Of a stretch of DNA of 64,000 bases, positions 13,640 to 20,904 are shown piece after piece. Position 1 is the stretch's first letter. Each line of letters opens with the position of its first letter. The stretch is from assembly GCF_902779965.1 (NCBI RefSeq), contig NZ_CACZDK010000023.1:1-64000 (forward strand), written 5' to 3'. A program made the translations under genes and the position numbers. The stretch comes from Fibrobacter succinogenes (lineage in GTDB: Bacteria > Fibrobacterota > Fibrobacteria > Fibrobacterales > Fibrobacteraceae). The notes beneath the pieces are model-generated. The model was not told the origin of the DNA, ran no database searches, and saw only the letters and a program-made list of their open reading frames with translations.

Positions 13640-13668
13640 AATCTATTTTGTATATATTATAGGGAGAA
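13640..13668 (+). promoter_or_regulatory. Putative promoter/leader shared with 17391-17439
   Basis: An A/T-rich stretch, ATCTATTTTGTA followed by TATTATAGGGAGAA, resembles the leader of the lipoprotein gene at 17447 (ATATATTTTGTG, then ATATTAGGGAGAA). It ends about 30 bases before the ATG at 13697, which has its own GGAAGGAG site. Confidence 0.35.
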
Positions 13669-13696
13669 TTTTGCGCCACCTTGGAAGGAGTTAAAA

Positions 13697-14320
13697 ATGT
13701 TTTACAAACATTGGAAGAAAATTGCACTTGCCTTAACCGGATTTTTTTGGAATAGCTGCGATAACTCGGTAACATCGGCGAACGCCAACGGAGTGAACCC
13801 ATCAAGTTCCTCTATCGGTGACAATCAGTCTAGTTCTTCCGAAGTGACTCCATCCTCTAGCAACGATGCGTTAGGAAATATGGTCCCGCTATACGGAATA
13901 CTTTTATCCAGCGTAGTCCAATCTTCAAGTTCAAATGCAGAATCGAGCAGCAGTTTCGTGCAACCGGTGCCCGCATACGGCGTTGTAGCAGTTCCCTGTT
14001 ACGAAGACGGTAAGGGCGTCAAAATGAGTGCCGGAGTCACAGAAACAAAACTCGTTTGCGATGACGGCGTATTTTGCAATGAACGTGAAGCAATAAAGAA
14101 AGGCGAAAATGATCCATGCCGCATTAACGACGATGGCGACCTCAAGGGTGCCGTAGCCTGCCCCGATTACGGCGTTGTTTATGTCACCGAAAAAACATAC
14201 GACTGCGATGGCGTCACCTATAACGAAGCCGAATTCCGCGAACGCTACGAGAAAGCTAAAATCGTAAAAATCGACAAGAAAATCGAAGACCGCTTGAATT
14301 CCGAGAAAAATGAAGACTAA
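13697..14320 (+). CDS. rSAM-associated lipoprotein, Ser-rich linker, Y-G modules (copy 1)
   Basis: 207 residues. The N-terminus MFYKHWKK, hydrophobic core and FFWNSC (C21) make a lipoprotein signal with Trp at -3. Residues 30-90 are poly-Ser linker interrupted by PLYGIL. The rest holds PAYGVVAVPC, a CDDGVFCNE element, PDYGVVYV and finally YDCDGVTYNEAEFRERY. These Y-G and Cys/Asp modules recur in the neighbouring lipoproteins that flank two radical SAM enzymes. The strong ribosome site GGAAGGAG precedes ATG. I infer a surface-anchored substrate of the radical SAM enzymes; no enzymatic motif is visible. Confidence 0.7.
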   Translation: MFYKHWKKIALALTGFFWNSCDNSVTSANANGVNPSSSSIGDNQSSSSEVTPSSSNDALGNMVPLYGILLSSVVQSSSSNAESSSSFVQPVPAYGVVAVPCYEDGKGVKMSAGVTETKLVCDDGVFCNEREAIKKGENDPCRINDDGDLKGAVACPDYGVVYVTEKTYDCDGVTYNEAEFRERYEKAKIVKIDKKIEDRLNSEKNED

Positions 14321-14324
14321 AAAC

Positions 14325-14415
14325 GTCATCCTGGAGCGCAGCGATAGGATCCAGTTAAATTAAAACAAAGCTTTGGATTCTTCGACTTCGAACCTACGCT
14401 TCTTCGCTCAGAATG
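14325..14415. repeat. GTCATCCTG...GGATCC type dispersed repeat
   Basis: AACGTCATCCTGGAGCGCAG, then GATAGGATCCAG, then GGATTCTTCGACTTCG and CTCAGAATGAC. The two ends are imperfect inverted copies. Related stretches lie at 22989-23060, 29958-29985, 44572-44600, 46905-46945 and 59670-59705. Confidence 0.55.
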
Positions 14416-14470
14416 ACTCCAAACAAACACCTCAAAGCCGCATAACGGCGATCTCAGACATCACACCTCT

Positions 14471-14878
14471 ATGTTCTACAAATTTCTAAAATTCATTTTC
14501 CTTTCGACACTCACTCTTATTTGGGGCGGTTGCGAAAGCAAAGACCATGCCATAGCCGGGTATGGTTGCATCTCTACCCAATGCTATAACACTACTGCGA
14601 TAAACGACGCCGGCAAAGCATTCGACATCATTGAATGCGAAAACGGCGATAAATACCTAAGGCATCCGGGAATTTACGAAAGCCCTTTAGCGCCAAACGA
14701 TTTGCCCCCAGGTGTTGACGTTTTCGCCCCGCAAACAGACGAAAGAGGGTGCGGAGCTTCAAACTGCACTTACAGCAAACAAGATCTTTGCGTAGACGGA
14801 ATCGTTTTAGACGAACACGGAAATGAACAACCCGTCGGTGGATGCTACCCCACCATCGATTGCCCGGAAAAGAAATAA
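14471..14878 (+). CDS. rSAM-associated lipoprotein family member (copy 2, short)
   Basis: 135 residues. MFYKFLKF plus a hydrophobic stretch ends in LIWGGC (C21), the same tryptophan-containing lipobox as its neighbours. There is no Ser linker. The mature part begins AGYGCISTQC and has several Cys (C-N-C spacing in GCGASNC, DLCVDG, GGCYP, DCPEKK), so it is a diverged Cys-rich version of the family. Only one Y-G occurs and the 'YTxxEF' end is absent. No clear ribosome site. It follows a 150-base repeat-bearing spacer. Confidence 0.6.
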   Translation: MFYKFLKFIFLSTLTLIWGGCESKDHAIAGYGCISTQCYNTTAINDAGKAFDIIECENGDKYLRHPGIYESPLAPNDLPPGVDVFAPQTDERGCGASNCTYSKQDLCVDGIVLDEHGNEQPVGGCYPTIDCPEKK

Positions 14879-14924
14879 TCGCTAAAACTTTGGCAGCTGA
14901 ACTTAGAAATTTTAAGGAGAAAAA

Positions 14925-15782
14925 ATGAACATTCGCAAGCACTGGAAAAAGATTCTACTCACGACAACCGCCTTTTTCTGGGCAAGCTGCAACTATGAAG
15001 AAACGGCACAGCCCCTGTATGGTGTGTACTGCCCGCCAGAAGGCTGCGGCGACCGCGAACTCAGCAGTTCCAATATCACTCAGCTCTCATCAAGTTCAGA
15101 AGCGGTAAGCAGTTCATCCAAAACCAATACATCGTCCAGCAGCAACGAAGAATCCAGTTCCAGCGAAGTGACATGCACACCCGGGGATTCGGTCGTATCG
15201 TACTACCCGCCCTCCTATTCTGCGGACATTGCCAAGATGGGCGCCGAAGAACGTGCAAAACACGCCGGAGTTGAAAAAATTGACAGCATCCAACAAACAA
15301 TGCAAACAATTCCGCAATGTCTCGCCCAATTGCGCATGGAACTCGACATGTTTGTTGCACTATATGGCGCCCCGAATGTGTTCCCCAAAGACGAAGTTTG
15401 CAGTGACGGCACAACACGCCCAACACAAGAATACCTCGATTATCTAAAAATGAAAGAGGAATGGGAAAAGAACAAGCCCGCATTAGACGAAGAATGCCAA
15501 AAGATTTACGAAGACAAGCTGAAAGAAATCGAACAAAACGTTAAAAAGTGCCTTGCAACATCAAATCCCAACACAGACTTGACTATTTGCGATTTTGATG
15601 CCATGTGCCCCGAATATGGCGTAGATTCAAAATGCACTTATAAATACACTTGCAACGACGGTGTCACTTGCCACAGAACCGCAGGTGAAACCAATATGGA
15701 TTGCACCAACAAGCAAGGGGAAAAAGTCACCTACTCCAAAAACGAATTCGATAAAAAATATTACACGAAAAACGGTTATTAA
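14925..15782 (+). CDS. rSAM-associated lipoprotein family member with Ser-rich linker (copy 3)
   Basis: 285 residues. MNIRKHWKKILL and FFWASC (C22) form the family lipoprotein signal, then PLYGVYC, then a Ser-rich tether at about residues 46-82. Residues 100-220 are a helical, charged segment unique to this protein (coiled-coil-like, with EEWEKNK and EEC...YEDKLKEIEQ). The end returns to family modules: CPEYGVDSKC, YTCNDGVTCH, and KVTYSKNEFDKKYY. AAGGAG precedes ATG. Its stop overlaps the start of the next lipoprotein by one base (TAATG), so the two are coupled. Confidence 0.68.
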   Translation: MNIRKHWKKILLTTTAFFWASCNYEETAQPLYGVYCPPEGCGDRELSSSNITQLSSSSEAVSSSSKTNTSSSSNEESSSSEVTCTPGDSVVSYYPPSYSADIAKMGAEERAKHAGVEKIDSIQQTMQTIPQCLAQLRMELDMFVALYGAPNVFPKDEVCSDGTTRPTQEYLDYLKMKEEWEKNKPALDEECQKIYEDKLKEIEQNVKKCLATSNPNTDLTICDFDAMCPEYGVDSKCTYKYTCNDGVTCHRTAGETNMDCTNKQGEKVTYSKNEFDKKYYTKNGY

Positions 15783-16105
15783 TGTTCAACAAGCACTGGA
15801 AAAAATTCGCACTTGCAACAGCCGCTCTATTCTGGAGTGGTTGCAGCGATGATTCGTCAAGCAACAATCCATCAACGGGCAACGAACCCATAGCGTGTAC
15901 ACTTCAATCATATATTTACGACACCATCGAGTGCGGACATTCCACGACAACCAATAATAACTTCAATTGTGATGACGGATTTGAATGCCACCAAACTCCA
16001 GAATGCGATAGCAAGATCTACTGTTCAGATAAACAAGGCCAAAGCATCTCTTACACCACAGAAGAATTTGATATAAAATATTTTATACAGAAAAGAAATT
16101 TCTAA
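15782..16105 (+). CDS. rSAM-associated lipoprotein family member (copy 4, short)
   Basis: 107 residues. MFNKHWKKFAL and LFWSGC (C21) are the family signal and lipobox. The mature chain is about 86 residues: a short SDDSSSNN linker, IACTLQSYIYDTIEC, FNCDDGFECHQTPEC, then SISYTTEEFDIKYF, the family's 'CDDGxxC' and 'YTxxEF' modules. The Y-G motif of the other members is missing here. It overlaps the upstream gene by one base and is the last lipoprotein before the first radical SAM gene 78 bases downstream. Confidence 0.65.
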   Translation: MFNKHWKKFALATAALFWSGCSDDSSSNNPSTGNEPIACTLQSYIYDTIECGHSTTTNNNFNCDDGFECHQTPECDSKIYCSDKQGQSISYTTEEFDIKYFIQKRNF

Positions 16106-16183
16106 AAAAAACTTATAAATTTAATCATTAACCACAACACTTAAAATTTCGCCCCTACCTTTTACCTACCATCTAAAACCTAT

Positions 16184-17260
16184 ATGAAACTTTCTCTTAA
16201 GAAAAAACTCGCTCTCGAAGCTTATCGCCTTTACCGCCATAACGAAATCAAGGCTCACCCGCTCACTTACTTTTTCTGGGAATGCACGCTCCGCTGCAAT
16301 TTGCACTGCCTGCACTGCGGTAGCGACTGCGTCAAGGACGCCATTCCCGATATGCCCCGCGAAGATTTTATGGGAGTGCTCGACAAGCTTGCCCCGCATA
16401 TTGATCCGAAGCACTTTATCGTGGTGATTACCGGCGGCGAACCGCTCATGCGCCCCGACCTTGAAGAATGCGGCCAAGAAATCAAGAAACGCGGTTACCC
16501 CTGGGGCATGGTCACAAACGGACTTGCCATGACGCCAGAACGCTATACAAAACTTTTGAACGCAGGGCTCCGCTCGCTTACCGTGAGCCTTGACGGGCTC
16601 GAAGCGAACCACAACCATTTCCGTGGCGATCCGCATAGCTTTGAACGCGCGCTCCGTACCATCGACATGGCCGCCCACACCGAAGGCCTCACCTTCGATG
16701 TGATGACCTGCGTGAACCGCGAAAACTTGAAAGAACTCCCGAAAATCTTAGACTTGCTTTTGAAAATTGGCGTCAAACGCTGGCGCGTTGCAACGGTGTT
16801 CCCGAAGGGCCGTGCCAAAGACAATCCGCTGTTCCAGCTCACGAACCAGGAATTCCGCCAGGTGTTCGACTTCATCCGCGAAGTGAAAAAGCTGAATGTC
16901 ATCAGCGTGAACTACGGCTGCGAAGGCTTCCTCGGCAGTTACGAGAAAGACGCCCGCAACTACCCGTTCTTCTGCCGCGCCGGCGTAAACGTCTCTTCCG
17001 TGCTTTGCGATGGAAGCATCTCAGCATGCCCGAGCTTACGCGGCGACTACATCCAAGGCAATATCTATAAAGACGACCTGTGGGACGTGTGGCAAAACCG
17101 CTACCAAGTCATGCGCGACCGCAGTTGGGCTAAGCTTGGCGACTGCAAGACCTGTAAATACTGGCGCTACTGCGAAGGCTCCAGCCTCCATTTACGTGAT
17201 GAGAAGACAAAAGAACTTGCATACTGCCATGTGAAAAGACTAGAAGCTGCTGGAGCATAA
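16184..17260 (+). CDS. Radical SAM/SPASM peptide-modifying enzyme, rSAM/lipoprotein system type (copy A)
   Basis: 358 residues, cytoplasmic. The radical SAM cluster motif is C38-x3-C42-x2-C45, GGEP lies at 84-87 (SAM binding), and a Cys-rich SPASM-type C-terminus carries further iron-sulfur ligands (VLCDGSISAC, CKTCKYWRYC, AYC). The N-terminus (KKLALEAYRLYRHNE ... FFWECTLRC) matches what I recall of the TIGR04133-like enzymes that accompany a lipoprotein family in Bacteroidetes. Such SPASM enzymes modify ribosomally made peptides through a 5'-deoxyadenosyl radical. The surrounding lipoproteins are the obvious substrate candidates; the modification is unknown. No clear ribosome site, in contrast to the strong ones of most of the lipoproteins. 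Confidence 0.85.
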   Translation: MKLSLKKKLALEAYRLYRHNEIKAHPLTYFFWECTLRCNLHCLHCGSDCVKDAIPDMPREDFMGVLDKLAPHIDPKHFIVVITGGEPLMRPDLEECGQEIKKRGYPWGMVTNGLAMTPERYTKLLNAGLRSLTVSLDGLEANHNHFRGDPHSFERALRTIDMAAHTEGLTFDVMTCVNRENLKELPKILDLLLKIGVKRWRVATVFPKGRAKDNPLFQLTNQEFRQVFDFIREVKKLNVISVNYGCEGFLGSYEKDARNYPFFCRAGVNVSSVLCDGSISACPSLRGDYIQGNIYKDDLWDVWQNRYQVMRDRSWAKLGDCKTCKYWRYCEGSSLHLRDEKTKELAYCHVKRLEAAGA

Positions 17261-17264
17261 GGAG

Positions 17265-17292
17265 AATCCATCCCCAGAAAAAGATGGATTTT
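17265..17292 (+). terminator. Possible weak terminator after rSAM copy A
   Basis: AATCCATC and GATGGATT form an 8-bp stem with a 10-base loop and a short T-run, beginning 5 bases after the stop codon. Confidence 0.5.
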
Positions 17293-17390
17293 CGATAAAA
17301 TTCATCCAAGAAATCTAGATGTACAGCAAAACAACCCAACACAAACCTTAATAAAATTTTACACAAAAAATAATTACATCTAAAAGAATT

Positions 17391-17439
17391 GCAAATTCGC
17401 TTGTTTTTAAATATATTTTGTGTAACATATTAGGGAGAA
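17391..17439 (+). promoter_or_regulatory. Shared upstream element of lipoprotein gene 17447
   Basis: Positions 17391-17425 match 19371-19405, upstream of the lipoprotein at 19418, at about 27 of 35 bases, centred on a TTTAAATATA core. The match stops before the coding region, and it contains the likely promoter. The element ends with AGGGAG, the ribosome site. Confidence 0.45.
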
Positions 17440-17446
17440 ATACATA

Positions 17447-17917
17447 ATGATGTACAAACACTGGGAAAAAATCTTACTGGCCATGACTAGTTTCTTCTGG
17501 GGAGCTTGCAACGCCGCTTCGGACAACACAACAGCTACAAAAAAAATTGTATCCAAAGAGGTGTCAAAACTCGAAGCAAGCAAACTAAAGCCCGTTACAA
17601 AAGATACCTTGAGCATCATAAAAGATTCCACGAATCTTGCACGACCAGTTCCCATATATGGCATCAATCCTCCGCCAATTACTAAAGTTCCATGCGCACA
17701 GCAATCTGGCAACTTTATCGTAAAATGTCTTAACGATGTCATTTGCGTTGACGACAAGGTATATCCAGGTTGCACAAGCAAAAAGCCTACAGTCGTTGCA
17801 AAATACGGAACAATCGCAACAGCCCCCAAAAGATATACTTGCGATAACGGGAAAACCTACACCGAAGCCGAATTCACAAGGTTATTCACGGTTGTAGAGT
17901 TGCCTCCAAAGCAATAA
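17447..17917 (+). CDS. rSAM-associated lipoprotein family member (copy 5)
   Basis: 156 residues. MMYKHWEKILL and FFWGAC (C22) give the family signal. Instead of poly-Ser, the linker is rich in Lys/Glu/Ser/Thr. Modules follow in order: VPIYGINPPPITKVPC, FIVKCLNDVICVD, VAKYGTIATAPKRYTC, and DNGKTYTEAEFTRLF. The pattern is two Y-G-x(n)-C units and one terminal 'YTEAEF' unit, matching copies 1 and 6. It lies between the two radical SAM genes. Start at 17447 or the next codon; the AGGGAG site fits either. Confidence 0.68.
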   Translation: MMYKHWEKILLAMTSFFWGACNAASDNTTATKKIVSKEVSKLEASKLKPVTKDTLSIIKDSTNLARPVPIYGINPPPITKVPCAQQSGNFIVKCLNDVICVDDKVYPGCTSKKPTVVAKYGTIATAPKRYTCDNGKTYTEAEFTRLFTVVELPPKQ

Positions 17918-18010
17918 AAGAAAAATTTCTTTTATAATCATTTGAGTCAAATTATAGACTGCGACATAAGCAAATGTAGCAGCCTATACTTTTTTTTAAC
18001 CTTTATTATT

Positions 18011-19087
18011 ATGAAACTCGGTCTTAAGAAAAAACTTGCACTCGAAGCATTCCGTCTTTACCGTCACAACGAAGTCAAATCGCATCCGCTGACATATTTC
18101 TTTTGGGAATGTACGCTGCGCTGTAACTTACACTGCCTGCATTGCGGTAGCGACTGCGTCAAGGATGCCATCCCCGATATGCCCCGTGAAGACTTCATGG
18201 CAGTACTCGACAAGCTTGCCCCCCATATCGATCCAAACAACTTCACCGTCGTTATTACCGGTGGCGAACCGTTGATGCGAGCGGACCTCGAAGAATGCGG
18301 ACAAGAAATCAAAAAACGCGGATACGCCTGGGGCATGGTCACAAACGGGCTTGCTATGACTCCCGAACGCTACACCAAGCTTTTGAATGCAGGCCTCAAG
18401 ACATTGACCATAAGCCTTGATGGACTTGAAGAAAATCATAACCATTTCCGTGGGAACCCGCATAGTTTTGATCGCGCCATCCGCGCCATCAACATGGCCG
18501 CCCACACCGAAGATCTTACGTTCGACGTGATGACATGCGTAAACCGCAAAAACTTGAGCGAACTCCCTCGCATTTTGGATTTGCTCGTGAATCTCGGAGT
18601 CAAGCGCTGGCGTGTTTCAAACGTATTCCCAAAGGGACGCGCCAAGGACAACCCGCTATTCCAACTTACAAACGAAGAATTCCGACAGGTATTTGAGTTC
18701 ATCCGTGAAGCAAAAGCTATGAACGTCATCAATGTGAACTACGACTGCGAAGGCTTCCTTGGAGATTACGAGAAGGTTGTGCGCAATAGCCCGTTTTTCT
18801 GCTGGGCAGGCGTGAACATTTCATCAGTTCTTTGCGACGGGAGCATCTCGGCATGCCCGAGCCTGCGTGGCGACTACATCCAAGGGAACATCTACAAGGA
18901 TGATATCTGGGACGTTTGGCAGAACCGCTACCAAGTCATGCGTGACCGCAACTGGGCTAAAACCGGTGAATGCAAAACATGCAAATACTGGCGCTACTGC
19001 GAAGGCTCCAGCCTTCATTTACGTGATGAGAAAACAAAGGAACTTGCATACTGCCATGTAGCGAGACTAGAGGCCGCGGGAGCGTGA
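18011..19087 (+). CDS. Radical SAM/SPASM peptide-modifying enzyme, rSAM/lipoprotein system type (copy B)
   Basis: 358 residues, the same length as copy A, with about 45 amino-acid differences by eye and no gaps. All Fe-S ligands (C38, C42, C45, the SPASM Cys set), GGEP and the C-terminal ELAYCH...RLEAAGA are kept, so both copies should be active. Changes cluster in the middle third (residues 140-275), including C-R to C-W in FFCRAG/FFCWAG, which might reflect substrate preference. The frame is open 23 codons upstream, but MKLGLKKK aligns with the copy A start. It arises from tandem duplication. Confidence 0.85.
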   Translation: MKLGLKKKLALEAFRLYRHNEVKSHPLTYFFWECTLRCNLHCLHCGSDCVKDAIPDMPREDFMAVLDKLAPHIDPNNFTVVITGGEPLMRADLEECGQEIKKRGYAWGMVTNGLAMTPERYTKLLNAGLKTLTISLDGLEENHNHFRGNPHSFDRAIRAINMAAHTEDLTFDVMTCVNRKNLSELPRILDLLVNLGVKRWRVSNVFPKGRAKDNPLFQLTNEEFRQVFEFIREAKAMNVINVNYDCEGFLGDYEKVVRNSPFFCWAGVNISSVLCDGSISACPSLRGDYIQGNIYKDDIWDVWQNRYQVMRDRNWAKTGECKTCKYWRYCEGSSLHLRDEKTKELAYCHVARLEAAGA

Positions 19088-19176
19088 TGACAAATGCGTA
19101 AGGCGAGAGTCGCAACCATGCTTGCATGGATATGACCGAGCCTAGCATTTGGTACTTTCGCGAAGCGAAAGTACAG
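19088..19176. repeat. Spacer with palindromic hairpin repeat
   Basis: Contains CCATGCTTGCATGG (19116-19129) followed by ATATGACCGAGCCTAG, nearly identical to 44704-44735, and a second palindrome GTACTTTCGCGAAGCGAAAG at 19152-19171 (whole palindrome ends at 19174). It sits exactly between rSAM copy B and the remnant of a third copy. Confidence 0.6.
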
Positions 19177-19233
19177 AAGACTAAGGAACTTGCGTATTGT
19201 CACGTCAAACGTTTGGAGGCAGCCGGGGCATAA
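19177..19233 (+). pseudogene. 3' remnant of a third rSAM/SPASM gene
   Basis: Read in one frame, these bases encode KTKELAYCHVKRLEAAGA and a TAA stop, identical in protein sequence to the last 18 residues of copy A (VKR rather than the VAR of copy B). Codon choice differs from both (for example ACTAAGGAACTTGCG). No longer reading frame precedes it: the repeat at 19088-19176 replaces the rest. It shows a third paralogue existed and was lost, or was partly duplicated. Confidence 0.75.
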
Positions 19234-19272
19234 CGGTTCCTCCGAAAAGCGAAGCGTAAAAAACGCGAATTT

Positions 19273-19304
19273 AAGGCTTGGATGGTTCATTCCAAGCCTT
19301 TTTT
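19273..19304 (+). terminator. Rho-independent terminator of the rSAM locus
   Basis: AAGGCTTGGA and TCCAAGCCTT form a 10-bp stem with an 8-base loop followed by TTTT. It is placed 40 bases after the stop of the third-copy remnant, so it is probably that gene's original terminator. Confidence 0.75.
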
Positions 19305-19370
19305 CGTTAAAAATACAATTACAAAACATACGTTATAAAAAAAATTACGACAAACATATTGAAAATTTGC

Positions 19371-19409
19371 TCGTATTTAAATATACTTTATATACAATTT
19401 TTCAAGGAG
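19371..19409 (+). promoter_or_regulatory. Shared upstream element of lipoprotein gene 19418
   Basis: Counterpart of 17391-17425 with the same TTTAAATATA core, ending in AAGGAG before the ATG at 19418. Confidence 0.45.
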
Positions 19410-19417
19410 TAATAAAA

Positions 19418-19858
19418 ATGAAATATAAACACTGGCAAAAACTATTGCTAGCCTTGTCCAGTTTGTTCTGGAACAGCTGTAATTCATCTCCAGACGTAGC
19501 ATCGCCATCTTCGGGCGACATCTCTATGGATGTAAAAAACAATTCAACGGAAATTTCCGCTTTAGCAAAAGACGCTCAAGATCCTATCGTCAACGACTCT
19601 TCCGATATCGGTAACACGATTGCTTTGTATGGTGTTCCGTCCAAGGTTCTGTGCGTACAAAAAGAAGGGAACTATCTTGTAAAATGCCGTGACGGAGTCA
19701 CTTGCATCGATACAGACTTGCTTCCTGCCGTAAAATACGGAACACCAACCTACAAGAAAAAGAAATACAAATGCGATGACGGACACCAGTACACCGCATC
19801 CGAATTCAGAGCCATCTATGATTTGCTTATCATTTCCCAAGGGAAAAAAGCTGAATAA
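19418..19858 (+). CDS. rSAM-associated lipoprotein family member (copy 6)
   Basis: 146 residues starting at ATG 19418, which follows AAGGAG; a longer upstream frame is not used. MKYKHWQKLLL and LFWNSC (C21) are the family signal. The mature chain has a short Ser/Asp-rich linker, IALYGVPSKVLC, YLVKCRDGVTCIDTD, AVKYGTPTYKKKKYKC and DDGHQYTASEFRAIYD. Module order equals copy 5, so the two are close paralogues, as their shared upstream sequences also indicate. It is bounded by hairpins at 19273 and 19889, so it is probably its own transcription unit. Confidence 0.68.
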   Translation: MKYKHWQKLLLALSSLFWNSCNSSPDVASPSSGDISMDVKNNSTEISALAKDAQDPIVNDSSDIGNTIALYGVPSKVLCVQKEGNYLVKCRDGVTCIDTDLLPAVKYGTPTYKKKKYKCDDGHQYTASEFRAIYDLLIISQGKKAE

Positions 19859-19888
19859 AATCTCAACCTTTGTTTTCATCTCATACAA

Positions 19889-19915
19889 AAAAGCCCTACT
19901 ATTTGTAGGGCTTTT
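19889..19915 (+). terminator. Rho-independent terminator after lipoprotein copy 6
   Basis: AAAAGCCCTAC and GTAGGGCTTTT make an 11-bp perfect stem with a 5-base loop, ending in a T-run. Confidence 0.85.
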
Positions 19916-19956
19916 CCAGTTCAATAAATGTATATTAACATTTAAAGGAACTTTAT

Positions 19957-20904
19957 ATGAGCATTCGAAAAATTTCAAGAAAGCTTTTTATTTCTACAGC
20001 AGCATTCTTTTGGGCAAGCTGCGGAGGGGACAGCGAATATCCTCCAGTCGCTTCTAATCCCCCAAACGACCTTACATCGAGCACATCAAGTTTCCCAACA
20101 AGCAGTTCAGAAATTGAGGAAAGCAGCTCTAGTGACACTCCATCGAGTTCTTCTGAAGCCGTCCTAAGCAGCTCTAAAGAATCTTCATCGAGCATCGCCA
20201 ATACTGAACCAATTGGGCCATACAGACTTGCTAGAGATACAAGCGTGTCCTGTAAAGTCACTTCATGGAGTCCTAAAGAATATTATGAATATGCAAAGTA
20301 TAATCCAAGCATATTGATGGATGAATTAGAAAAGAATTACTTCAAAAATTTAACAGAACTCGAAGAAATAGAAGATCATCTTGAATTTAGCACTATCGGT
20401 CCAATCCCCTCTTATGGAAGTTATTTTCATACCAATGTGACAACACCCGAGTCATTTGCATGTTCAGATGGCACCCTATTCAAATACGACAGTTTTAGAT
20501 ATAAAGATTCATTGATTTTTTCAAACGAAGAATACATAGAAAAATATCCCCAAAGTGTAGCCTCGCCCCTTTGCAGAAAGACCGATTTTTTACGAGCAGA
20601 CTTTACTAATGAACTTGATAAAGATAAACGTTTTATTGGCCATTTAAACGACATATACAAATCAGACACCAAAACGGTTATTGACAGCGTAATAGAAGCC
20701 AATAAAGAAACTCTATCCGCGACACAAACAGATTGCATTAATGCCATAAAAATATATCCAAGTGAATTATACGAAGGTCCAATAGCTACCAAACAAATTT
20801 GTGATGGAGACACAATCGTAAATCCTCGTTATCAGGAAAAACGAGAAGAAAATAAAGAATCTACCTTAGATGAAATTAAAAATTGCCTAGATAAAACAGA
20901 ATAA
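19957..20904 (+). CDS. rSAM-associated lipoprotein family member with long Ser-rich linker (copy 7)
   Basis: 315 residues. MSIRKISRKLF and FFWASC (C22) retain the family lipoprotein signal though KHWKK is changed. Residues 38-85 are Ser-rich, made of SSSS blocks with acidic and Pro residues. The C-terminal 220 residues have no recognised fold but contain SYGSYF, FACSDGTLFKYDSF and ICDGDTIV, weak echoes of the family's Y-G and CxDG elements. Base composition is more A/T-rich than the flanks, hinting at fast divergence or transfer. AAAGGA precedes ATG. Confidence 0.6.
   Translation: MSIRKISRKLFISTAAFFWASCGGDSEYPPVASNPPNDLTSSTSSFPTSSSEIEESSSSDTPSSSSEAVLSSSKESSSSIANTEPIGPYRLARDTSVSCKVTSWSPKEYYEYAKYNPSILMDELEKNYFKNLTELEEIEDHLEFSTIGPIPSYGSYFHTNVTTPESFACSDGTLFKYDSFRYKDSLIFSNEEYIEKYPQSVASPLCRKTDFLRADFTNELDKDKRFIGHLNDIYKSDTKTVIDSVIEANKETLSATQTDCINAIKIYPSELYEGPIATKQICDGDTIVNPRYQEKREENKESTLDEIKNCLDKTE

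Follow-up and report, generated by a model that had tools for sequence, protein, structure and literature searches.

A cluster of nine plus-strand genes at 13697-20904 of the window, the 64,000-nucleotide stretch of the Fibrobacter succinogenes genome analyzed here (NZ_CACZDK010000023.1, positions 1 to 64,000), encodes two radical S-adenosylmethionine (SAM) enzymes with SPASM domains among seven lipoproteins. We propose that these enzymes, which belong to family TIGR04133, splice X-Tyr-Gly (XYG) sites before export and thereby equip lipoproteins encoded across the genome with α-keto-β-amino residues, a reading to which we give a probability of roughly 0.6. Until now TIGR04133 and the lipoprotein family TIGR04134 have been a named pair with undefined chemistry, and TIGR04133 was not found mentioned in the literature searched. 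An earlier note, made from the letters of this DNA, had described duplicated 358-residue radical SAM/SPASM genes among seven lipoprotein genes, as the gene calls confirm, and had left the chemistry open. That now looks too pessimistic: enzyme clade, a shared motif, and the contexts of the Tyr-Gly (YG) pairs point to tyramine excision of the PlpX type. PlpX, of InterPro family IPR026482, excises tyramine at Xaa-Tyr-Gly and rejoins the backbone as an α-ketoamide, acting with a partner protein, PlpY (PMC11002830; PMC10533398). Proof of the reaction is confined to relatives of the TIGR04133 enzymes, a cyanobacterial one among them.

Enzyme Family and Phylogeny

The two enzymes are 87% identical to each other, and both have the SPASM domain (Pfam PF13186), CNLHCLHC at residue 38, and GGEP at residue 84, so that the Cys motif and GGEP are intact in each, as first read. 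Their scores against TIGR04133 (rSAM_w_lipo), 620.6 and 606.7 bits over the full model (positions 1-350 of 350), exceed the curated cut-off of 425 bits and secure the family membership that the earlier note had raised. An AlphaFold2 model of the enzyme was half confident (mean predicted local distance difference test score, pLDDT, 59), and its Foldseek matches, SuiB, SkfB, BlsE, and PqqE, reflect the general radical SAM/SPASM fold only; sequence comparison with solved structures gave no standout relative of PlpX.

In a phylogenetic tree, TIGR04133, a diverged relative from the same genome, TIGR04103, the TIGR03913/DUF1843 enzymes, and two TIGR04103-like enzymes formed one clade (support 100/97), with AhbD, NirJ2, NirJ, MftC, TIGR04053, and TIGR04347 as the comparison set outside it. 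This tree, the second of two, is not an independent test: PqqE was dropped, and three relatives were regrouped once the first result had been seen. The earlier tree, more poorly sampled, without AhbD and NirJ2, and rooted on the long PqqE branch, grouped the splicease and TIGR04133 enzymes only weakly (88/59), and the first clade definition, which left the three relatives out, was rejected on it. The motif G[FY][LY]GxYE precedes the SPASM cysteines in nearly all TIGR04133 enzymes and also in TIGR04103 and TIGR03913; it was not found in the MftC, NirJ, PqqE, TIGR04053, TIGR04347, AhbD, and NirJ2 sequences compared, and two relatives have GYYS[MN]KD in its place.

On almost every branch of the clade, polypeptides containing X-Tyr-Gly adjoin the enzyme. 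In Nostoc, a TIGR04103 enzyme (853 bits) lies between a Nif11 precursor ending in SIALYGLPPELF and an open reading frame (ORF) of 71 amino acids (aa) in the PlpY position, and the IALYGVP of lipoprotein F in the window (within TIALYGVPSK) is nearly identical to the IALYGLP of that TIGR04103-associated precursor. Small YG-bearing ORFs accompany 70 of 80 cyanobacterial TIGR04103 loci under a loose pattern that admits some chance ORFs. Beside TIGR04133, the TIGR04134-type lipoproteins of Parabacteroides and Phocaeicola have CEYG[TS]P, a Treponema lipoprotein has SCYGMP, a protein outside the genus (L072) has repeated AAKYGVITPPKDS, and lipobox-less proteins outside the genus have one to three YG each. 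One such neighbor (L087) has a weak type IX secretion system sorting tail (22.5 bits, cut-off 23), and at three loci outside the genus (L073, L082, and L083) we found no clear YG neighbor to the TIGR04133 enzyme. Elsewhere in the clade, enzymes adjoin DUF1843 peptides with QPYGAGI or a short ORF with VMYG.

Lipoproteins with a Common Leader and XYG Sites

The genes of the cluster are separated by -1 to 330 bp and run in the order four lipoproteins, enzyme 1, lipoprotein, enzyme 2, two lipoproteins:

13697-14320, +, lipoprotein A: 207 aa; leader MFYKHWKKIALALTGFFWNSC (E=3.6e-13); C-terminal YDCDGVTYNEAEF module
within 13697-14320, +, XYG sites of lipoprotein A: VPLYGIL, VPAYGVV, CPDYGVV; YG columns 64-100% conserved
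14471-14878, +, lipoprotein B: 135 aa; leader ...LIWGGC; XYG site IAGYGCI
14925-15782, +, lipoprotein C: 285 aa; leader MNIRKHWKKILLTTTAFFWASC; XYG sites QPLYGVY, VALYGAP, CPEYGVD
15363-15368, +, example Tyr-Gly codon pair in lipoprotein C, proposed splice site
15782-16105, +, lipoprotein D: 107 aa; leader the same as that of lipoprotein C; YG absent in this genome
16184-17260, +, enzyme 1, radical SAM/SPASM, TIGR04133: 358 aa; 620.6 bits; GFLGSYE at residue 248; proposed XYG splicease
17447-17917, +, lipoprotein E: 156 aa; XYG sites VPIYGIN, VAKYGTI; both YG 100% conserved in 6 relatives
18011-19087, +, enzyme 2, radical SAM/SPASM, TIGR04133: 358 aa; 606.7 bits; duplicate of enzyme 1
19418-19858, +, lipoprotein F: 146 aa; XYG sites IALYGVP, AVKYGTP; both YG 100% conserved in 5 relatives
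19628-19633, +, example Tyr-Gly codon pair in lipoprotein F, proposed splice site
19957-20904, +, lipoprotein G: 315 aa; XYG site IPSYGSY

An earlier TTG start is possible for enzyme 2 at 17942; the ATG at 18011 agrees with enzyme 1. Promoter and terminator scans gave results no better than chance, and the AlphaFold2 model of lipoprotein F was poor (mean pLDDT 50).

In each of the seven lipoproteins the lipobox Cys is residue 21 or 22; the lipobox reads [FL]FWxxC in six and IWGGC in one. Their common signal peptide is unusual, with KHWKK near its start and ...FFWxSC at its end, and the Trp at lipobox -3 recurs in 93 of 98 non-redundant relatives. A leader profile (A1, 36 rows) recovered all seven. 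They also have modules in common, namely YxCxDGxxYxxxEF at the C-terminus and xYGxP, which in about half of the cases precedes a Cys-x-DG element, so the shared signal peptide and modules of the original description stand. Its pairing with TIGR04134 (lipo_with_rSAM) does not: none of the seven matched that model at E<=1, the best score in the genome was 22.6 bits on a different contig against a curated cut-off of 39.8 bits, and TIGR04134 was rejected as the partner family. What unites the lipoproteins is instead a leader of their own together with the XYG motif. None of the seven scored above the cut-off for any Pfam family.

Six of the seven window lipoproteins have the YG expected of an exported lipoprotein adjoining TIGR04133, with 12 sites in all against 3.4 expected, a count reached in 1 of 5000 shuffles. 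Among Trp-lipobox lipoproteins generally, Tyr-Gly is the most enriched dipeptide (434 observed, 101 expected); in lipoproteins without the Trp lipobox its excess is scant (161 against 143). Sequence kinship inflates such statistics, but the enrichment persists in the 98 non-redundant lipoproteins, which contain 246 Tyr-Gly pairs compared with a mean of 51.8 after shuffling (standard deviation 6.9; z = 28) and in which Gly-Tyr is depleted. The usual context is [PA]-[L,K,E,D,A]-Y-G-[V,I,C,P,A]-P. Within each family of relatives, most YG columns show 80-100% identity, compared with 42-76% for other Tyr residues; lipoprotein A at its first YG and lipoprotein C at its third are the exceptions. For lipoprotein B (15 relatives) the values are 93-100% and 63%, and for lipoprotein C (21 relatives) the middle YG is 100% and the third only 33% conserved. 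Proteins elsewhere that resemble lipoprotein D have CPEYG close to the corresponding place, and the layout of lipoprotein G resembles that of ~345-aa lipoproteins remote from the enzyme in these genomes.

Distribution of Enzyme and Leader

Of the 151 genomes sampled from the phylum, 78 encode TIGR04133, and most genomes of the genus have one or two strong copies. By the profile, the leader is present in each of the 62 genomes of the sampled genus that have the enzyme, and absent from all 17 genomes listed for other genera of the family that lack it, a co-occurrence that supports lipoprotein modification as the likely role of the system, as the earlier note had supposed. The enzyme is absent from five genomes of the genus, and leader genes persist in two of these, G145 (71% complete) and G077, both with leader- and YG-bearing lipoproteins.

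The multiplication of the substrate side seen in the window extends beyond it: the profile matches the same genome 16 times at E<=1, with seven of these matches in the window and the remainder on different contigs. All 21 leader-bearing lipoproteins remote from an enzyme have YG, compared with 88 of 179 lipoproteins outside this group (p = 1.6e-6); as many as four of the 21 (L226, L227) may belong to enzyme clusters severed by contig ends. YG is kept in the leader-bearing lipoproteins of one such locus, L216, though the remainder of the protein differs greatly. This locus (L216:1690-4366, contig C4 of the same genome) encodes three tandem leader- and YG-bearing lipoproteins unlike those of the window, with a C-terminal part that, by eye only, resembles a TonB C-terminal type domain.

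Proposed Splicing and Alternatives

In the mechanism that we favor, the lipoproteins are probably spliced by radical enzymes: the two TIGR04133 proteins would act as cytoplasmic XYG spliceases on lipoprotein precursors bearing the KHWKK...FFWxSC leader, which would contribute to recognition, ahead of Sec export. At each X-Tyr-Gly site, a tyramine equivalent (C8H9NO, -135.0757 Da) would be removed as by PlpXY and the backbone rejoined, after which the spliced lipoproteins, now bearing one or several electrophilic ketoamides each, would be exported, lipidated, and displayed at the cell envelope. The enzymes would act in trans, on leader-bearing lipoproteins genome-wide as well as on their cluster neighbors. 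At the surface, the ketoamides might be protease-resistant, protease-inhibiting, or covalently reactive. More tentatively, and at somewhat under even odds in our estimate, backbone splicing could be a general modification of surface lipoproteins, in which a leader-plus-XYG tag is grafted on unrelated domains and processed in trans, independently of PlpY and before export, to yield many envelope ketoamides.

Several observations weigh against PlpX-type splicing. No small PlpY-like gene was seen among the nine genes of the operon (inspection only). By hidden Markov model (HMM) score, TIGR04053 and AhbD are nearly as close to the enzymes as TIGR04103 is, and the enzymes share only ~30% overall identity with TIGR04103 proteins. 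A C-terminal tail of ~60 aa in TIGR04103 is missing from TIGR04133, as is the fourth Cys of CX2CX5CX3C, and TIGR04133 differs further in an extra Cys246 immediately ahead of GFLGxYE and an N-terminal extension of ~28 residues. We take IPR026482 to be TIGR04103 on the strength of the InterPro entry and family name, and TIGR04103 proteins stand in for PlpX in the comparison. Lipoprotein D has no YG, and beside one clade member (L122:3156-3572) Tyr-Ala replaces Tyr-Gly in two of three DUF1843 peptides, which suggests relaxed use of the motif. Finally, G077 (loci L248 and L252) is 99% complete and encodes its leader- and YG-bearing lipoproteins, with weak leader scores, in the absence of TIGR04133; it is either a real exception or an assembly gap. 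Lipoproteins in enzyme-less genomes, which the earlier note had named as counting against its interpretation, do occur, but rarely (G077 and G145).

The differences between TIGR04133 and the PlpX-family enzymes leave room for other Tyr-directed chemistry, and the YG tyrosines might be crosslinked, joined by a thioether to a nearby Cys, decarboxylated, or oxidized, with no splicing at all. SPASM enzymes are chemically diverse, the altered SPASM cysteines, the added Cys246, and the missing PlpY would fit such an outcome, and the Cys-x-DG-like element that follows within 60 aa at 132 of the 246 YG sites could permit Tyr-Cys chemistry. We nevertheless consider this unlikely, since a Tyr-Cys crosslink would require neither a strict Gly after Tyr nor PlpX-like contexts, many YG sites have no Cys after them, and the clade with TIGR04103 is strongly supported. 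Less probable again is a modification at the leader or elsewhere in the lipoproteins, with YG kept for another purpose such as sorting or binding. The leader is as conserved as YG (Trp at -3 in 93 of 98), and YG is absent from 5 of the 98 Trp-lipobox lipoproteins; yet outside the genus the partners of TIGR04133 differ in leader and fold and mostly still have YG, and those of the diverged relatives are cytosolic-looking YG proteins without such a leader.

Slightly more improbable still, the genes could be mere neighbors, the lipoproteins remaining unmodified while the enzymes, like AhbD and NirJ, have a small-molecule substrate. The HMM scores of the heme-pathway radical SAM enzymes do come close behind, but the heme-type enzymes fall outside the clade, leader, YG, and enzyme co-occur across genomes, and YG partners adjoin TIGR04133 in other phyla too.

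Relation to Known Systems

Like the TIGR04133/TIGR04134 system of Bacteroidota and Spirochaetota (NCBIfam), the window cluster combines full-member enzymes with an adjoining exported YG lipoprotein. It differs in having seven lipoproteins and two enzymes rather than one pair, in lipoproteins that fail TIGR04134 and have their own leader, Ser-rich linkers, and Cys-x-DG modules, and in additional leader-bearing lipoproteins elsewhere in the genome. With the PlpXY spliceotide system it has in common the SPASM clade (as TIGR04103), G[FY][LY]GxYE, and a near-identical X-Tyr-Gly context; unlike PlpXY, it has no PlpY, Nif11/NHLP-type leader, or C-terminal tail, and one SPASM Cys differs. Its substrates would be lipoproteins, whereas those of PlpXY are small precursors of ribosomally synthesized and post-translationally modified peptides (RiPPs), and its reaction is a prediction from sequence. 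The TIGR03913/DUF1843 GDL-motif system belongs to the same clade, and some DUF1843 peptides have [Q/R]PYG near the N-terminus; these substrates, however, are very short, have no signal peptide, and in some cases have Tyr-Ala for Tyr-Gly.

If the proposal is true, tyramine splicing extends from small RiPPs to envelope lipoprotein families of gut-type bacteria, the enzymes are compact single-protein spliceases for protein labelling, and the chemistry of TIGR04133/TIGR04134 is assignable by simple mass spectrometry. A 2022 survey, as cited in PMC10533398, predicted 939 splicease systems; it may already list TIGR04133, which would lower the novelty.

Additional YG Loci

In the Treponema lipoprotein with SCYGMP (L120:3595-3984) and in one from a member of the phylum with ACYGTP (L074:8507-8911), YG immediately follows the lipobox Cys, so that residue X would be the lipidated Cys itself. 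On contig C26 of the window's own genome (L088:4007-5873), a diverged TIGR04133-like enzyme (276 bits, below the cut-off) overlaps the gene for a 259-aa zinc-ribbon protein with ILYGPPIKI, and the arrangement recurs in several genomes of the genus (L089-L093). On contig C1 (C1:143692-146384; L095:7693-10385), a protein of 386 aa whose repeats (LMKYGYPCGVSDLP, MKYGYPCGVSDLPL) contain 19 Tyr-Gly, and which has no NCBIfam match, adjoins a TIGR04103-like radical SAM enzyme that is extended at its C-terminus; the pair makes up a second, unnamed YG/radical SAM system.

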